Shown: positions 1,813-62,873 of the stretch, piece after piece
Numbering within the stretch: the stretch's first letter is position 1
Layout of the letters: each line of letters starts with the position of its first letter
NCBI RefSeq assembly: GCF_029633865.1
Contig: NC_079213.1
Coordinates: 110,694,836 to 110,758,835 of the forward strand
Length of the DNA: 64,000 bases
Direction of reading: 5' to 3'
DNA from: Lampris incognitus
Lineage: Eukaryota; Chordata; Actinopteri; Lampriformes; Lampridae
Program-made: the position numbers and the translations under genes
Notes under the pieces: generated by a model
The model's input: only the letters and a program-made list of their open reading frames with translations
Databases searched by the model: none
Told to the model about the DNA's origin: nothing

Positions 1813-1909
1813 TGTAATGACCACGGAAGCCTAGACTCGCTAGCCCTTGGTTAACGGGTCGGACCCTTTAGTTGAGTGGTTAGCGCAGTCGCCCCCCGAA
1901 TTCGCTACA
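1813..1909 (+). mobile_element. Possible short tRNA-like LTR relative
   Basis: Starts TGTAATGACC and ends TTCGCTACA, flanked by GTATAT on both sides (1807-1812 and 1910-1915). Inside is GGGTCGGACCCTTTAGTTGAG, the same GGGTC-GACCC palindrome and A-box position as the better copies. The B-box half is missing. Confidence 0.4.
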
Positions 1910-2343: not shown

Positions 2344-2347
2344 CATT

Positions 2348-2736
2348 GTAACCGGTTATTTTCTTGCCCGGTGCGGGATTCGATACGAGGTGTACTGCAC
2401 CACAAGGCGACGTCACTAACCGCTCGGCTAAAGGGTCAGACCCGTTAGCTAGGGGCTAAAGGCTCAGACCCGCTAGCTAGGGGCTAAAGGGTCAGACCCG
2501 TTTGCTAGGGGCTAAAGGGTCAGACCCGCTAGCTAGGGGGCTAAAGGGTCAGACCCGCTAGCTAGGGGGCTAAAGAGTCAGACCCGCTAGCTAGGGGCTA
2601 AAGGGTCAGACCCGTTAGCTAGGGGCTAAAGGGTCAGACCCGTTAGCAAGGGGCTAAAGGGTCTGAGTCGCTAGCTAGGGGCTAAAGGGTCAGACCCGCT
2701 AGCTAGGGGGCTAAGGTGTCTTATTAGTAGTTTACA
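2348..2736 (-). mobile_element. Solo tRNA-like LTR with expanded internal array
   Basis: Same family as the TRIM at 12.7 kb: TGTAACCGG on the left, TTTACA on the right. Flanked by an exact 4-bp target duplication, ACAT (2344-2347 and 2737-2740). The tRNA-like part is at about 2355-2440. The rest is a tandem array of about ten 28-29 bp units, where other copies have one or two. Confidence 0.8.
2428..2714. repeat. Ten-unit 28-29 bp tandem array inside the LTR
   Basis: Consensus CTAAAGGGTCAGACCCG followed by TTAGCTAGGGG (or CTAGCTAGGGG), about ten units with few changes. Each unit has two short palindromes, GGGTCAGACCC and CTAGCTAG. The unit is the A-box-upstream part of the LTR, so the array is an internal amplification. 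Confidence 0.9.
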
Positions 2737-3797: not shown

Positions 3798-3960
3798 TGT
3801 AAACTACTAATAAGACACGTTAGCCCCTAGCTAGCGGATCTGATCCTTTAGCCCCTAGCTAACGAGTCTGACCCTTTAGCCGAGCGGTTAGTGATGCCGC
3901 CTTATGGTACAGTATACTTCGTATCGAATCCCGCACCGGGCAAGAAAATAACCGATTACG
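3798..3960 (+). mobile_element. Solo tRNA-like LTR copy
   Basis: Starts TGTAAACTACTAATAAGAC and ends ACCGATTACG. Exact 4-bp target duplication TATG at 3794-3797 and 3961-3964. It has two of the 28-bp units, then the A-box TAGCCGAGCGG and the B-box-like GTATCGAATCC about 45 nt downstream. Confidence 0.8.
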
Positions 3961-7072: not shown

Positions 7073-10000
7073 GCCTGTCTGTCTGTCTGTCTGTCTGTCT
7101 GCCTGTCTGTCCCCGCAACAGAAGGCCACTCTGTGCAACGCCACCATCTACGTGACGGGGACGGAAACTGTGGTAAAACAGGTGGACTGCCAAATGGGTG
7201 AGTGTGCAGGACAGGACAGGATCAGGGACCCTCAGTTAAAGGCCGGCGCTGTAAATACGGAAAAAGTTCAGGATGTGATTTTGCTTTGCGTTCAAGCCTG
7301 ACACGAAAGGAAGTGAAACCAAAATAAGCTGCTCGTAGACCATGGGAACCTACTCACTAAGAAGAGTTTGGATTAGATTTGATAGATCCGGATCGAGATA
7401 AAGTCACGTGCGAAGGTCGTCACTTTTTGCAGCGTGGGGAAAGGATTTGACAAAGGTTTCAGAGAACTGCGTCTCTCGAGAGACCGTTTATTTGACTTTT
7501 CTAGATCCTTCAGCGGCCTCCCTGCAGATAAAATCTGCAGATGTGGGTGTGTGTCCTGGTCTCTGAACTAGCGCCTCCTCTGGTCAGTCAGGGCACCTGT
7601 TCAGGGGGGAGGGGGAACTGGAGGGGGGGGGGTAGCGTGATTCTCCCACGTGCTACGTCCCCCCTGGCGAAACTCCTCACTGTCAGGGGAAAAGAAGCAG
7701 CTGGCGACTCCACATGTATGGGAGGAGGCATGTGGTAGTCTGCAGCCCTCCCCGGATCGGCAGAGGGGGGGGGAGCAGAGACCAGGACAGCTTGGAGGAG
7801 TGGGGGAAATTGGCCAAGTACAACTGGGGAGAAAAAGAGGGGGGGGGGGGGGAATCCTAGAAAAAAAAGAACCGGCGCACCTCAAGTCTCAATTCGCCTT
7901 TTATGAAAAGCCTCTTGGAAAGAGTTCTTGTCTTAATTCCACAGCAACAGAAAAACCCCCCTCTAATATGTGCCAGTCCCAAGTCTGCTCATCACTGGTT
8001 TGTTTGCTTCCAGAGGGAGTCAGTGGTCTGCCAGTACGGTGCACCGTGACTCATGGCAATGCAAAGTCCTGAGTTAAGGCGTCGAGCCAGACAGAGCACA
8101 TTTCACAGAAAGGAAACAGTGATTCATTGAGGAAAAAGTGCAACACGTGGGCGAAAGGAACACAGAGGCGAGCCGGTTGTGTAACAGATAAGCAGCATTA
8201 TGTCTGATACAGACAGCGCAACACTGAGTTTCAGCCAACCAGAGGAGGCTGCAGTTTAGCATAGACTTTACTCTGTTTGCCCGGCACTCACTGACTTCCA
8301 ACCCAAATCCTGAAACGGTGCTTCTTTTTTTTTTCCACCACCGCCCCATTCTTTAAACTGCTTTGCACTTCATTTAAGGGCGAGGGTCGAAAAATACCTT
8401 GAATATTAAAGTAGTGCCCACCTGCCTGGGCGTGCTTTGTCTCAGGAAAGTCAAATAGATTGTTGTGATACCGTCACCGGTAGGTGATGATGAGCTGGTT
8501 TAAAATGGGAGGCTGAAAGCAGCGTTGTAACTTGAAAGGCGAACCAGCACTGCAGCTCCAAACCTGTTTTCCTCGGACCGTTTGACATAAACCAGGCTTG
8601 CTGTTGCTATTTAACACGAGGAAAACAACATTATGACCGATGAGGATGTCTTTAAAGCAAAAAGGAGGATCGTAGGTGTGGTGCGTGATCTTGTTTTCAC
8701 ATTTTCCTTCTTAACAGTTATTAATAATGATAATAATATATCATATATAGCTATAACTGACAGGTAGCAGGTACACCGACACAAGTGAAAATATCCAAAT
8801 GGAGCTGCTTAGTGGTGGCGGATCATTTTCAAGGGAAAGTTAAAAAAAATCAAAATAACTATTAAGCCATAAAACTCAAAATGTGCATTTGAAAGCATTT
8901 CTAAATGTTTGCTAAAACAGTGAAGCTGCAAGTCTGAGAAAAAGTATTAACGAATCAGGGCCAGTGTAGCAAAGCAGATTACACCCCCCCCCCCCCGCCA
9001 AACTATACCCGGCCAAGCCTAAACTGTACCCTGGGGTATGAAATATGAAATAGCCTAGGCTGGTTTATACCCCTCTAGTCCAGATTATACCCCCCACTGT
9101 TAGTGCATACAAATGTCCTTCAGATTGGTAGATCAAGGTTAGGGGGGCTCCTAGTGAACACATATGTGTTAAAAAGCATGTTTTTGCTGTCATTTCTGAT
9201 GTTTTTAAGCTAAAATATTTATTAGCTTAGCTAAAAGGGCTAAAACTAGTTGCTAGTTAGCCAAAAGCTAATAGGCTAGGGAGGTGATCGAGATTTAAAA
9301 GTTTACATGTACGAAGTAACACTTCCGCTTGATCATGACGCCTCAATACTAATGGAACTGGGCCACTAAGTGGCGCTACAGCGAAACCTTTAATTTTATA
9401 TTTTTATCAACTATAAATAGGAATGGCCATGTGCATAGGCGTTTATAGCCCATTTTTGGGGGTGCTGCAGCACCCCTAAATTGAACCCCAGCACCCCTAA
9501 AATTGAAGAGATTTTTTATTTTTTACTGTATGTCCATGTTTAATAAACTGAAGAAATGTCAAAACCATATCCGGTATATGGTTTAAACGTAATTTTTTAA
9601 CAACAAAAATACAGCACCCCCCATGCTTCGAAAATGGTTTGATCCACCCCCCCCCCCCCCCAATTTATCTTGCCAGGGGGGCCAGCACTCTGGGTGCTCA
9701 GCACCCCTAAAGCTCTGATCCTAGAATCGCCCCTGGCCATGTGACAATTTGCCCCAGTAACTGTTATACATGTAATTAAATGATTCCATGATAAAATATG
9801 GTTTTGTGGGAATAACAAACAGAAGGAAGAAAATAAAGAAGCAAGGAAGAACAAGGGGAAGTGTAAAGTTTTGGGTGCCTACGTGTGTATTATTCAATTT
9901 TATTCGTTTTTTTCAAACAAAAATCCATCATGGATGATAACCTGTACAACCAGATTTTGAACTTCTACATCAGCTCTGTCTGAAAGTGTCCTCAGCATAT

Positions 10001-13000
10001 CTATGACCTGGATCTTGCCGAGAGCGTGAATGCAAAGTCTCAGTTTCGTCAAACAGCAAAGCCATTTGGTGCTGACGGTGGAACTCTCTTCCACGGGGTT
10101 ATGGAGGCTCTTGTCGAAACCCGTGTGCCCAACATCCTGAAGGCCTGTCATGACGATCCAGCCACATGAGGGCACTTTGGCAGAGATAAAACCTTCAGTA
10201 GAATATCTCACCGATATTACTGGAGAGGCATGAAGAATGATGTACATGAATACGTGAAGGCGTGTCCGAAGTGTTTTGTCAGTAATCCCAAAGTCAGCAA
10301 AGAAGCTTCGTCACTCAACCCCATACCTGTACCTATCAAGATCTGGAGTCTGGTTGGGATTGGCATTATTGGCCCTGTTCAAGAAACTACAAGTGGTAGC
10401 AAGTACATCGTTGCCATAACTGACCATTTCTCCAAGTGGCCTGAAGCCGCAGCTATCCCAGACAGGAGCGCAAAGTCAGTGGCAGAGTTCCTTTACTCTG
10501 TTGCATGTCGACTAGGCTGCACGGACACCCTTATCAGTGACCGGGGTCGTGAATTTGTAAACAAAGTTATTGACTTGCTTATGGACTGTTTCCAGACAGA
10601 TCACTGTATAGCCTCTGCACACCACCCACAGTCAAACGGCCAAAGGGAACGGGACAACAGGACACTCAAGGCTGCATTGAGTGAGCTCGTCAGCGACCAA
10701 GCCGATGATTGGGATCAGTACATTCCAGGCATTTTGTTGGCTTATCATACATCTATCCGTGCCTCAACAAAGTGCGTGCCCTTCGAAGGGATGTACGGCC
10801 ACACTGCCAAGCTACCCATCGACCTGAAGTCTGCCAACGAGAGTGATGAAGCACCACTTCCAGACTCAGCCAGCCCCGGTGTTCTGCAGACACTTCACAC
10901 CATTCCTAAAGACCTCTGTTCCACACTCTCCAGCAACATCGCCAGTGCACAGTCTTCTCAGAAGGAGAATTAGGATCGGTATAATCTGGACTAGAGGGGT
11001 ATAGTCTGGCCTAGCCCAAACAGTTTTAACAGTGATTACCATTATGCAGTGAAATCACATAATACCACAACAAGAGGTTACTTTCTTTACCTCCTTCACC
11101 TTCACCTCCTCTTTTCTCTCCGTTTCTCTTCGTCCTTCACCTCCCTCTAGATGATCCTGTGGTACCAGAGCGTGCCGCCTGTTTGGGCTGCCCCAAGGAT
11201 ATTGATACAGACTCGGAGGACCTGAAGGTCCCTCTGTCCGTCTCCATCGCCAAGTTCAACTCCATCTCCGACTCCACGAACCTGTTCGTCCTCAACCGTG
11301 TCGCCTATGCCACCAGACAGGTAGAGACTAACTGGGCGTGTGCAAGGGCCGGGGGCTGGTGGGGTGGTTAAGATAGAGCTGAGGTTTAAGCAGTTGAAAA
11401 TTAATGAGTTGAATGAGTCAAAGGATAATTCTGTTTTGTTTTTACTACCTGGGTCTTATTTTTGTAGTTTTTGCCGTTGTGCATATCAGTTATACCATTT
11501 TAGCCGCCAGCTTTATTTTGGAGATTTCGTACATGGGAGCACTACTACAGACAACATTAAAATGGCTTCTTATGGGGCAACTGAACATGTAGTACATGTC
11601 CCTTTAACAACAATAACAGAAAAACAAAACAGAACAAACAAACAAACAAAAAAACACATGATTTTCCATGACCTATGACTCCTCAATTAAGCTGGCCAGG
11701 TAGTTAGTTAATGGTTAACTACCATTAACTAACTACCTGGCCATACTTACCCACAGTAAGTATAGGCTGGTCATTCCTGTAAGTTGAACCAGGAAATAGC
11801 ACAGCAGCCCAATCGACCGTTCATGATATTGGGCATTTTGGGTAGTAACTTTTAACTTGCACTTACATTATCGCATCTAAATACGTGCTCGAGATCATTG
11901 GCTTAAATTAGACTTGTCTGACACCTTTATTCAGCTGCCCTATAAGAAGCTGTTGTAAAGCTCAGTCCAGTGTTGGTCCCATATCCAAAATCTCCACAGT
12001 GAAGCTGGCAAGTGAAATCATATCATAAACAATATGCACGATGGCAGAAACTACAAAAATTGAAACCCTCGTTGTAAAAACAACACAAAACCCAGAGTTA
12101 TCCTTTAACCACCGAATGTGGTTGTAAGGCACGTAGACATGACGAGTGGACAGCTCCTCCGTCCTGACTGCTTCTGTGTCCCTGCAGGTGGTGGCAGGTT
12201 TCAGGTACAAAGTGGGCTTTGATATGAGGAAGAGCACCTGCCCAAAGGCAGAACACAAAGACCTCAGTGACACCTGCGTCCCCCACGCCGATGACGTGGT
12301 AGGCCCCAAGTACAACGCTCATATCATAGATTGGCAGCACCCCATGCGATATTTATTATGAAGCTTTTTTTAAGTGTACCTTTGTATGTATGTGTGTGTG
12401 TGTGTGTGTTTATGTAGGAGCTGGCCCACTGTAACGCCACTGTGGATGTTGCTCCCTGGAGACATGAGGTTCCAGAGGCAAACATTGGATGCAGCCCGGG
12501 GGCCCATCCTGTCGTTGTAAGGGCCACTTGACACAGAATAGTTAGCTGTGGCGTCTGTGGGTTTTCTGTGGGCGTAACTGCGGGAAACGCTTTTACAGTT
12601 TTAAGGAAGAAATCAGAAATCCGTGCTATATTTCAAAGAGGGAGCTCGGCGCCAATGGGGGTAATTAAAGGGAAAACGCGCAAAATTGTCAACTTTATTT
12701 CTGTAGCCGGTTATTTTGTAGCCCGGTGCGGGATTCGATACGGGGTGTACTGCACCACAAGGCGACATCACTAACCGCTCGGCTAAAGGGTCAGACCCGT
12801 TAGCTAGGGGCTAACGTGTCTTATTAGTAGTTTACAGTCGTCACCCTCCCCGGAAGCTTGTTCTTCCCGCGCTCCGAAGAGACTTCTGAGGATCTGCACA
12901 CTTCCAGATCCCACCGCTGCCACCAATGTAAGCGGTTATTTTCTTGCCCGGTGCGGGATTTGATACAGGGTGTACTACACCACAAGGCGACATCACTAAC

Positions 13001-15442
13001 CGCTCGGCTAAAGGGTCAGACTCGCTAGTTGGGGGCTAACGTGTCTTATTAATAGTTTACACTTATTTCCATTTATTCATCGTAGCTTTGGCGTCGCTAT
13101 ATAACGCACACAATGCTCTCCAGCGTTGTCCGTATAGTTGTAGCGTTCCATAATAAACTAGCTCACTTCCGCCATCCATTGACGTCAGTGGATGACGTAA
13201 AGCCCACGACGCAGATCACCCGAGCCGTTCGTTTTCTAAAGGGACCGCAAACGGTAACTGAGCCGCATTTATATCAGGCTTTTCTAGCCTACCGACCGTC
13301 CACGCGTTCACACACGGACGGCGGAGGCTGCGGGGCAAGGCGTCAACCAACCCTAATCTCCGCCCCCCCTCTCGTGCGCAGGGGGTTGGTACCGCGGATC
13401 GGACGTTACGTTACACAAAACGCCGCTGGCCCCAACGGGAAGCGAGTGACGTCACGTAGCCCCACCATTTTGATCGGCGTTGCTTTTCAAAACAAGCGAA
13501 GAAGAGCAACTCGCATCCTCTCCAAAAAGGAAACCGTATTCAGCATCTTTGACAAATTTAGATACAACACCGTAATAATAATAATAAAAAAAATGCAACA
13601 GCACAGCAATTTTGAAAAGGTATTGTAAACTACTAATAAGACACGTCAGCCCCCTAGCTAACGGGTCTGACCCTTTAGCCGAGCGGTTAGTGATGCAGTA
13701 CACCCGTATCGAATCCCGCACCGGGCAAGAAAATAACCGGTTACAGTATTGAAGATATTACCCTCACGTAACATTTCAGAGGGGTCCTTTTTTACCTTTA
13801 CACTCTTCTGATCCTTTTTCTGCCTTTTTGGAAGCGTGCTGTGCATTCGTTTCTTTAAAAAAAAAATTTTTTTTTGTGTGTTGTCAATCGGTCTTTCGGA
13901 CTTGGGCCGTTTCCAAGGGCAACGCGACGCCGGGCGCCATCTTCCAAGGATCAGAGGCATTGTGACGCCACGACCGAAAGACCGATACTCGTTGTGAGAC
14001 AGCCGATATAATTTGCAGTTTTTTTATCGCACGGTTTTTTTATGTCCGTCACCTTAACATTCTCAATTAGTTCTTGGATTAGTCCCACCTTGCTAGCGCG
14101 GTTTTTCAATATTTGCACTGAGATAATAGAATAAATAAAACATTAGCCTTTATCAACTTGACAGGAGTCCTGCTGGAAGCCGCCATGTTTTCAGGACAGT
14201 CTGTACTTTTTTTGGTAATAGTGTAACGTGCGTGGATAAGTAGACACGTGGGTCCTTGAATAACAAGTCGGACCGTTTAGTCGACTGGTTAACGTTGTCG
14301 CTTGCGGCGCGGGAAATGTGGGTTCGCGTCCCGGCTGTGGCGACGGTTCCCGGACTGCTCCCCAATTAGCTACAATATCACTAAAATCACTGACAATAAG
14401 TAATACATGGTTTATGTACTGTATCTTGATAATCTTAAATGTATTGCCTGTTCTTATTTTTAAAGAATTAGGAGGTGACGTGGTGGTGGGGGGGGTGCCT
14501 GGTTGCTGTCAGCCAGACGGGGCAGAGGTCTTTCCCTCGATGTGATATAGAGCTCTGTGCAGGACAGCGCTATCCGCCACTGAGAGGCTCTCGCACAACG
14601 CATCCTGTAGAACCACAAGCCTTTCTTTCAGGCCACTGCTACCCTAAAGGTCGACTGGGAAGGCCACAGTTTACAATACCTGCTCCCCATTAGTGCAACC
14701 AAAAGTCAGAACTAAGAAAGTTTCAACCACAAGCCTTTCTTTTAGGCCACTGCTACCCTAAAGGTCGCCTGGGAAGGCCACAGTTTACAATACATGCTCC
14801 CCATTAGTGCAACCAAAAGTCAGAACTAACAAAGTTTCAACCACAAGCCTTTCTTTTAGGCCACTGCTACCCTAAAGGTCGACTGGAAAGGCCACAGTTT
14901 ACAATACCTGCTCCCCATTAGTGCAACCAAAAGTCAGAACTATGAAAGTTTCAACCACAAGCCTTTCTTTTAGGCCACTGCTACCCTAAAGGTCGCCTGG
15001 GAAAGGCCAGTTTACAATACCTGCTCCCCACTAGTGCAACCAAAAGTCAGAACTATGAAAGTTTCCGTTCTCCCGTTTCCCCTTTATAATCTATCAAAAC
15101 ACCCCCGTCTTCTCTCTCCTGCAGCAAACTTTCAGGCGACGTCCTCCTGGCTGGTCTCCACTCAGGAACATCCAGGAAAAGGTCCCACCCCCCACTTTGC
15201 TCCCTCTCGTCCTAGTACCCCCGGCACCCAAGGAGGAATCTTCCGAGGAGGAGGGCGACGCAGCCTCCAAGTCCTCCTCTGCCGACAAGTCTGGAGTCGA
15301 TAAGGAGGTCCACCCCTTCAACTGCCCCACCAAACCCTGGAAAAAGTTCAGTCCGGTTCGGCACGTTACGATCCCGAGCCCCGCTACCACAGACCTACCC
15401 GTCGTAGAGGGGGGATTCCGTGACGCGGACCTCCTGGGATAG
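5882..15442 (+). CDS. kng1: Kininogen (two cystatin domains plus bradykinin), complete, 8 coding exons
   Basis: Secreted plasma precursor of the vasoactive peptide bradykinin. Coding exons, all with GT/AG borders and consistent phase: 5882-5947, 6274-6426, 6835-6951, 7122-7197, 11151-11320, 12188-12298, 12418-12516 and 15125-15442. They total 1110 nt, or 369 aa. Residues 1-22 form a hydrophobic signal peptide (core LCVLGLLCLHSLVLG). Residues 23-137 are cystatin domain 1 and 138-264 are cystatin domain 2, each with paired cysteines and a CNAT glycosylation site. Domain 2 has the cystatin inhibitory motif QVVAG across an exon junction (194-198); domain 1 has no such motif and is probably non-inhibitory. 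The last exon gives the kinin (270-278), an acidic/serine stretch and a short tail with one cysteine, suited to linking heavy and light chains. There is no histidine-rich domain, so it is low-molecular-weight-like. Two cystatin domains instead of the mammalian three is usual for fish kininogens. Confidence 0.95.
7026..7110. repeat. (CTGT)n microsatellite in kng1 intron 3
   Basis: About 20 CTGT units with two CTGC interruptions, preceded by a (CAT)n run. It ends about 11 bp before the exon-4 acceptor AG (7120-7121), so it serves as that exon's pyrimidine-rich region. Confidence 0.95.
7536..7856 (+). mobile_element. SINE family A, 5'-truncated copy
   Basis: Shares CACATGTATGGGAGGAGGCATGT-type sequence, CCCCGGATCGGCAGAGG and the GGGGAGAAAAAGAGGGG tail with three other copies in this window, but lacks their tRNA head. 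It ends in a G-run. In kng1 intron 4. Confidence 0.8.
9434..9735. mobile_element. hAT-like MITE nested in the integrase element
   Basis: 302 bp, ends CATAGGCG and CGCCCCTG (imperfect TIRs), with an exact 8-bp target duplication GCCATGTG (9426-9433 and 9736-9743). It contains repeated CAGCACCCCTAAA motifs and a poly-C run. No coding capacity. Confidence 0.7.
9929..10973 (+). pseudogene. DDE integrase (Gypsy/Ginger type), broken by stops
   Basis: Reads MDDNLYNQILNFY at the start. A stop interrupts it about 17 codons in, and another TGA falls inside the HHCC zinc finger (ACHDDPAT-stop-GHFGRDKT). From 10230 the frame is open for 247 codons: zinc-finger CPKC, then the rve catalytic core with TDHFSKWPEA (D), SDRGREF (D) and GQRERDNRTLK (E). 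No reverse transcriptase or RNase H is present upstream. Confidence 0.8.
11694..11742. repeat. 49-bp perfect-arm hairpin in kng1 intron 5
   Basis: GGCCAGGTAGTTAGTTAATG and its reverse complement with a very short loop. Strong cruciform/hairpin potential. No element ends seen around it. Confidence 0.9.
12702..13061 (-). mobile_element. Complete miniature LTR retrotransposon (TRIM) with tRNA-like LTRs
   Basis: Two direct repeats of 135 bp (12702-12836 and 12927-13061, about 91% identical by eye) flank 90 bp. On the minus strand each LTR starts TGTAAACTA and ends in TACA. Right after the 5' LTR the internal part starts TTGGTGGCAGCGGTGGGAT. From TGG onward, 18 nt are complementary to the 3' end of tRNA-Leu(AAG) including CCA, as I know that tRNA. 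Right before the 3' LTR lies a purine tract, GGGGAGGGTGACGAC. Each LTR contains TAGCCGAGCGG, a perfect Pol III A-box, and CGAATCC/TCGA-type B-box sequence. There is no coding capacity. It sits in kng1 intron 7. No exact 4-bp target duplication; the flanks CTTTATTTC and CTTATTTCC are similar. Confidence 0.8.
13085..13520. promoter_or_regulatory. CpG-rich segment with two full CRE motifs in kng1 intron 7
   Basis: Many CG dinucleotides and two palindromic TGACGTCA sites (13180-13187 and 13447-13454), plus CTATATAACG near 13098. It sits between two LTR copies. Could be an internal promoter or the regulatory part of an unrecognised element. Motifs are visible; function is inferred. Confidence 0.3.
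13624..13745 (+). mobile_element. Solo tRNA-like LTR copy in kng1 intron 7
   Basis: Starts TGTAAACTACTAATAAGAC and ends AACCGGTTACA. Exact 4-bp target duplication GTAT (13620-13623 and 13746-13749). It carries one internal unit, the A-box and the B-box-like motif; the segment between the boxes is shortened. Confidence 0.8.
13886..13986. repeat. Short inverted-repeat unit, ATCGGTCTTTCGG ends
   Basis: ATCGGTCTTTCGG (13887) and CCGAAAGACCGAT (to 13986) flank a CpG-rich core with GCGCCATCTTCC and GAGGCATT. The core also occurs at 2305-2333 in front of another LTR copy, so it is part of a dispersed repeat. Confidence 0.6.
14222..14374 (+). mobile_element. Diverged tRNA-like LTR relative
   Basis: Starts TGTAACGTG and ends AGCTACA. 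Same order of parts: GGATAAGTAGACACG, then GGACCGTTTAGTCGACTGG (A-box position), then GGGTTCGCGTCCC, a B-box match. The flanks ATAG and ATAT match at 3 of 4 bases. Looks like a second subfamily. Confidence 0.55.
14611..15065. repeat. Four 114-bp tandem repeats before the bradykinin exon
   Basis: Units start AACCACAAGCCTTTCTTT at 14611, 14725, 14839 and 14953 and include GTGCAACCAAAAGTCAGAAC. They differ by only a few bases (e.g. GTCGACTGG against GTCGCCTGG). The array ends 60 bp before the acceptor of the kinin exon. Confidence 0.95.
15125..15442 (+). CDS. kng1: kng1 last exon with bradykinin RPPGWSPLR
   Basis: The exon follows a pyrimidine tract ending in CTGCAG and reads QTFRRRPPGWSPLRNIQEK. 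The kinin RPPGWSPLR is at 15140-15166. With the preceding Arg it is the [Arg0,Trp5,Leu8]-bradykinin known from teleosts. Basic residues on both sides give kallikrein-type release sites. Downstream come a proline-rich segment, an acidic/serine cluster (EESSEEEGD) and the tail with one Cys (HPFNCPTKPW), ending at TAG 15440-15442. Confidence 0.95.
   Translation, partial: QTFRRRPPGWSPLRNIQEKVPPPTLLPLVLVPPAPKEESSEEEGDAASKSSSADKSGVDKEVHPFNCPTKPWKKFSPVRHVTIPSPATTDLPVVEGGFRDADLLG

Positions 15443-22099: not shown

Positions 22100-62873
<40,774 letters not shown>

Follow-up and report, generated by a model that had tools for sequence, protein, structure and literature searches.

Results

The window, that is the whole 64,000-nucleotide stretch of DNA that was analysed, contains a complete miniature element at 13061-12702 on the minus strand. 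It is 360 bp long and has the structure LTR (135 bp), 90 bp, LTR (135 bp). When the minus strand is read, the 5' LTR lies at 12927..13061 and the 3' LTR at 12702..12836, and both start with TGTAAAC and finish with CTACA or TTACA. The two are direct repeats with 91% identity and a start-to-start distance of 225, so that the two 135-bp TG...CA repeats around 90 bp reported in a preliminary description of this DNA were found exactly as reported. The 8.9% divergence of this pair is the largest among 50 LTR pairs compared (median 3.7%), and the 3' LTR has 94-99% identity to other near-full-length genome matches, among the matches listed. The region between the LTRs (12837..12926, minus strand) is non-coding and measures 90 bp, compared with 102-104 bp in many other copies that were fetched.

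This internal region opens with T followed by TGGTGGCAGCGGTGGGAT, an 18-nt primer-binding site (PBS) at 12908..12925 (minus strand) which is exact in 40/50 full copies. As had been proposed, it corresponds to tRNA-Leu: its sequence is exactly complementary to the 3' end of a tRNA-Leu including CCA, which is added to tRNA 3' ends, and a pattern search of the host's own genome (≤3 mismatches) gave six tRNA-Leu-like places, three of which end in ATCCCACCGCTGCCA. A purine tract, GGGGAGGG, was recognised by eye at 12844..12851 (minus strand). The tract itself was correctly noted beforehand, but it ends 7 nt short of the 3' LTR and does not abut it, as had been thought. The window's full copy has no target site duplication (TSD), its flanks being TAAG and GAAA; the eight flanking bases on each side, GAAATAAG and GAAATAAA, are almost alike, which might be the result of recombination between two insertions.

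Within the internal region, the sense stretch AGTCTCTTCGGA-GCGCGGG (12866-12884, minus strand) is close to the variable arm of the tRNA-Leu-like places in the same genome. When three host variants were aligned to it, 0, 5 and 54 of 2000 shuffles were as good. This may be just a shared UUCG hairpin, and because CUC-UUCG-GAG is a common hairpin the likeness was set aside as evidence.

Copies of the element were sought in the host's own assembly (1.48 Gb, 537 contigs). A 36-nt LTR core was found at 9,049 places (4,546 + 4,503) and a 36-nt pattern spanning PBS and internal region at 2,386 places (1,204 + 1,182), both with ≤2 mismatches; the reversed patterns, used as controls, gave none. The copy count called for at the outset is thus about 9,000 LTR cores and 2,400 internal segments. 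If each internal segment goes with two LTRs, slightly less than half of the LTR cores would stand alone, as solo or orphan LTRs, an estimate affected by any difference in sensitivity between the two patterns. A search with the full-length element gave at least 44 matches (best 40 of 3,077 candidates scored). Exact junction patterns were found neither in viral contigs nor in prokaryote genome contigs.

The 90 loci that were fetched are the best-scoring ones, partly overlapping, and not a random sample. Once LTR hits with <84% identity had been dropped, along with elements that had incomplete ends or lay <60 nt from a locus end, 74 distinct elements were kept: 50 LTR-internal-LTR copies of 349-379 bp, 19 solo LTRs and 5 longer arrays, one of which (L022) has four LTRs and three internal regions. 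Full units and solo LTRs occur side by side. TGTA...TACA ends were seen in 48/50 full copies. Perfect 4-bp TSDs flank 27/50 full copies, 11/19 solo LTRs and 4/5 arrays, where cross-pairing of flanks would give 1.9, 0.2 and 0.25 respectively; the other 32 of the 74 elements have no perfect TSD. Exact 5- and 6-bp flank matches, by comparison, were absent from each class (0/74), so that long variable TSDs of the SINE kind were not seen at the ends. Because 42/74 elements have perfect 4-bp TSDs, integration of this family is of the LTR-retrotransposon type and is not SINE insertion. Together with the anatomy, this result bears out the original proposal of a miniature LTR retrotransposon with tRNA-like boxes.

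The window holds three solo LTRs of the same family (family 1), each with a 4-bp TSD: 2347..2736 (minus strand, TSD ACAT), 3798..3960 (plus strand, TSD TATG) and 13624..13745 (plus strand, TSD GTAT). The first has swollen to 390 bp through repetition of a 28-bp unit, which it holds in about ten copies and the second in about two (3820-3881). In the swollen LTR the repeated units (2426-2714) lie upstream of the A box, and each holds a GGGTC-GACCC palindrome. A second, related family (fam2) is represented by an LTR at 14222..14374 on the plus strand, with no TSD at this copy. A related family has left a shortened LTR (TGTAATGACC...CGCTACA) at 1813..1909 (plus strand); instead of a 4-bp TSD, the 6-bp direct repeat GTATAT stands on either side of it (1807-1915).

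Other repeats were also observed in the window. There is a large inverted repeat at 32112-33314 (94% match to its own reverse complement over 1.2 kb), a 114-bp unit repeated four times in tandem at 14611-15065 (95% matches) and another interspersed family at 7540-7869, 27079-27452, 45301-45712 and 58734-59145 (81-84% pairwise identity). Heads of a tRNA-type SINE lie at 28216-28247 (minus strand) and 50049-50080 (plus strand); a reversed genome control for this head gave none.

On the sense strand both LTRs of the full element carry an A box and a B-like box, as had been claimed. The A box, TAGCCGAGCGG, has 0 mismatches to TRGCNNAGYGG in the 5' LTR (13000..13010, minus strand) and is likewise exact in the 3' LTR (12775..12785, minus strand). 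The B-box-like motif is GTATCAAATCC in the 5' LTR (12956..12966, minus strand), with 3 mismatches to GGTTCGANNCC (8/11), and GTATCGAATCC in the 3' LTR (12731..12741, minus strand), with 2 mismatches (9/11). Only 1 and 2 of 1000 dinucleotide shuffles did as well as the box pairs of the element's two LTRs. An exact A box is present in the first LTR of 64/74 elements. Variation over 118/119 LTRs was 1.2% in the A box, 1.1% in the B box and 2.9% elsewhere; ranked for conservation among 125 eleven-nt LTR windows, the A box is 22nd and the B box 13th, which is unremarkable.

Likeness to an actual tRNA was also considered. ARAGORN found no tRNA gene in the window or in 21 loci, Rfam gave no match at the gathering score in the window or in 8 loci, and the predicted LTR fold is not a cloverleaf; a real tRNA gene was rejected on these three results. 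Thus the promoter scan suggested earlier was positive for A and B boxes and negative for tRNA genes. None of the four LTR types described here was more similar to a tRNA-Val sequence than shuffles were, and only one of eight LTR-SINE comparisons beat all shuffles. With 11/12 comparisons within shuffles, ancestry of the LTR body from tRNA-Val or a SINE is unsupported.

Related LTRs were then followed in the genome. Fam2 was found by a search with window positions 14222-14382 (best 40 of 2,659 candidates scored), and perfect 4-bp TSDs were present in 5/12 fetched copies. One copy (L101) has the structure LTR, 93 bp, LTR and a different PBS, TGGTGCCAGAAGTGGGAT, which we take to resemble another tRNA-Leu. 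The PBS pattern, with the window family excluded, occurs at 178 places in the genome, of which four (L103, L104, L105 and L106) were fetched. L104 holds a variant of family 1, a diverged relative (fam1b) is found at L105, and L106 has a third LTR type (fam3) with the box B GGTTCGATCCC; fam1b and fam3 are known from one locus each. L103 leads into coding-type sequence. The four LTR types, represented by one LTR each, align from end to end, the agreement being clearest at GGGTC-GACCCTTT and at the A box; the alignment carries no significance figure. In the window family and the three related types the sum of A and B box scores was equalled by 1-6/1000 shuffles; the counts for fam1b and fam3 are weaker support for boxes because their best-scoring A box is off the position homologous to that of the window family. 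The B box core is GTATC in the window family instead of GGTTC, the core that fam2 and fam3 have.

The last 150 nt of the L103 LTR gave at least 41 matches in the genome (best 40 of 499 candidates scored), and pairs of such LTRs about 6 kb apart occur, e.g. at 38019517 and 38025529 on contig C6. A 901-bp piece between this pair matched RT_RNaseH (PF17917, E=4.8e-26); its match to RVT_1 (E=4.7e-4) is weak and does not reach the Pfam cut-off. The reading frame of this Gypsy copy is interrupted. Its LTR is 254 bp long (TGTAACC...CGGTTACA) and is preceded by GTAGGAGGGGAGGTA. TSDs of CTAT and CTGT were seen in both of the copies in which both ends were read, a third copy having been left out because the 5' sequence fetched for it did not reach the LTR start. 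Of the 50 full copies of the miniature element, 32 carry the 27-nt junction of the Gypsy (CGGTTACA + T + PBS) unchanged. The two have LTR tips, primer site and TSD length in common, as well as a purine tract that is broadly similar by eye; the LTR body is not common to both. No box pair of note is present in the Gypsy LTR (766/1000 shuffles were as good), which has four TTTT runs. The search for an autonomous partner with the same LTR ends or PBS has thus provided a candidate: the ~6 kb Gypsy is the best partner found for mobilising the miniature element, which it may do. It came from one of the four PBS places fetched out of 178, and the comparison of LTR tips covered this one Gypsy family.

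Discussion

These results indicate that the window element is very probably a TRIM of the kind named Helenus (TRIMp3): a gene-less element of about 350-380 bp that would be transcribed by Pol III and copied by Gypsy enzymes. The LTR-PBS-PPT-LTR anatomy, the integrase-type 4-bp TSDs, the solo LTRs and the tandem LTR-internal-LTR arrays were all observed directly. In the proposed mechanism TFIIIC and Pol III would use the boxes, and RNA would start slightly upstream of the A box, at about LTR position 40. The RNA would then extend across the internal region and enter the 3' LTR, with no TTTT terminator on the way. Copying from a tRNA-Leu primer and insertion of the copy would be carried out by the reverse transcriptase and integrase that an autonomous Gypsy element encodes. 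Judged by anatomy, use of the LTR boxes by Pol III is likely. A sense-strand TTTT was found in 0/50 full copies, 0/19 solo LTRs and 1/5 arrays. This is weak support for Pol III read-through, because the copies share a founder and 67% of dinucleotide-shuffled full copies also lack TTTT (33% have it).

Other explanations need to be weighed against this. If an ordinary tRNA-derived SINE were present twice in tandem, the "LTRs" would be two SINE copies; the A and B-like boxes would fit such an arrangement, and the tRNA-type SINE head is indeed found at 31,701 places (≤3 mismatches), two of them in the window. The precise TG...CA ends, the 4-bp TSDs in 42/74 elements with no exact 5-6-bp matches (elements with incomplete ends having been dropped beforehand) and the PBS-internal segment at 2,386 places all speak against it, and on the TSDs and termini the SINE reading was rejected as extremely improbable. 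The recurrence of box-like motifs among the related LTR types found in this genome, together with the exact A box in the first LTR of 64/74 elements and, weakly, the lack of a sense-strand TTTT in 69 full and solo copies, makes it unlikely that the TRIM is driven by Pol II and that the motifs are a relic, no longer relevant, left by a SINE or tRNA that inserted long ago. Such a relic would nevertheless agree with the degenerate B box of the window family, with the failure of ARAGORN and of Rfam (gathering score) to detect a tRNA and with boxes that are not clearly better conserved than other LTR windows.

It is also quite possible, though somewhat short of an even chance, that the family has already been catalogued by Kojima among fish Helenus of the LTR-11_DR type and so is not a new one. 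Size class, 4-bp TSD and tandem arrays are all alike, and the tRNA-Leu primer is within the tRNA-His, -Leu or -Lys reported for vertebrates (PMC10886601). The 5575 LTRs and 2618 internal regions of LTR-11_DR compare with 9,049 and 2,386 here, bearing in mind that the counting methods differ.

The four LTR types may tentatively be seen as a small radiation within one genome, Pol III-promoted, built on one body plan and with two primer sites, which would share with its Gypsy helper only the parts handled by the helper's enzymes (the tips, the primer site and the purine tract) and would retain a polymerase of its own for making its RNA; this broader picture is rather doubtful. Were it true, evidence from LTR tips and TSDs would be added to the link between animal Helenus and Gypsy, made from the PBS alone in Kojima's account (PMC10886601). 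More generally, another genome, with TSD statistics, confirms that animal LTR retrotransposons can carry tRNA-like promoter boxes, and there is now a concrete autonomous candidate for how Gypsy enzymes could copy a Pol III transcript.

Like the element described here, tRNA-derived SINEs have internal A and B boxes and a high copy number and borrow their enzymes; the LTRs, PBS and PPT, TG...CA ends and 4-bp TSDs found here set it apart from them. Helenus-like elements could confuse SINE annotation. The plant TRIM Cassandra has a Pol III-type promoter in its LTRs (PMC10886601), as is proposed here. Its promoter is of the 5S rRNA type, whereas no 5S match was found in the present element with Rfam at the gathering score. 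PbTRIM of the harvester ant (PMC3532108) is also an animal TRIM; the opening of its abstract mentions no Pol III-type promoter.

The closest likeness is to Helenus, the name given by Kojima in 2024 to TRIMs with tRNA-derived LTR parts from fungi, animals and one plant (PMC10886601), the only paper on Helenus or LTR-11_DR found in the open-licence library searched, with no other on tRNA-like LTRs among the titles listed there. The question of whether such an element had been described is thereby answered, as to its kind. According to that account, animal Helenus make 4-bp TSDs, tandem arrays such as those here occur among fish families including zebrafish LTR-11_DR, and similarity of the PBS points to Gypsy as the presumed helper. 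The present element is likewise short (TRIM < about 1000 bp) and non-coding, with A and B boxes in the LTR (on the boxes alone), a PBS after the 5' LTR, a PPT before the 3' LTR (by eye) and 4-bp TSDs in 42/74 elements and the 3/3 window solo LTRs, though not at the window's full copy. The two also have in common the tRNA-Leu primer, thousands of copies (a number similar to that of zebrafish Helenus), a presumed Gypsy helper and, mostly, no functional tRNA. As a further example of this kind, and not a new type of element, the window element is well supported. The GGTTC said there to be conserved in Helenus box B is replaced by GTATC in the window family; Pol III transcription is unvalidated there too. 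Kojima argued that a TRIM and its helper should differ in the LTR body and share tips, primer site, purine tract and TSD length, as in the Gypsy pair found here. Beyond Helenus as characterised in PMC10886601, the Gypsy candidate is matched by LTR tips and TSD besides the PBS, and the three related LTR types that stand beside the window family in the same genome are an addition to Kojima 2024.
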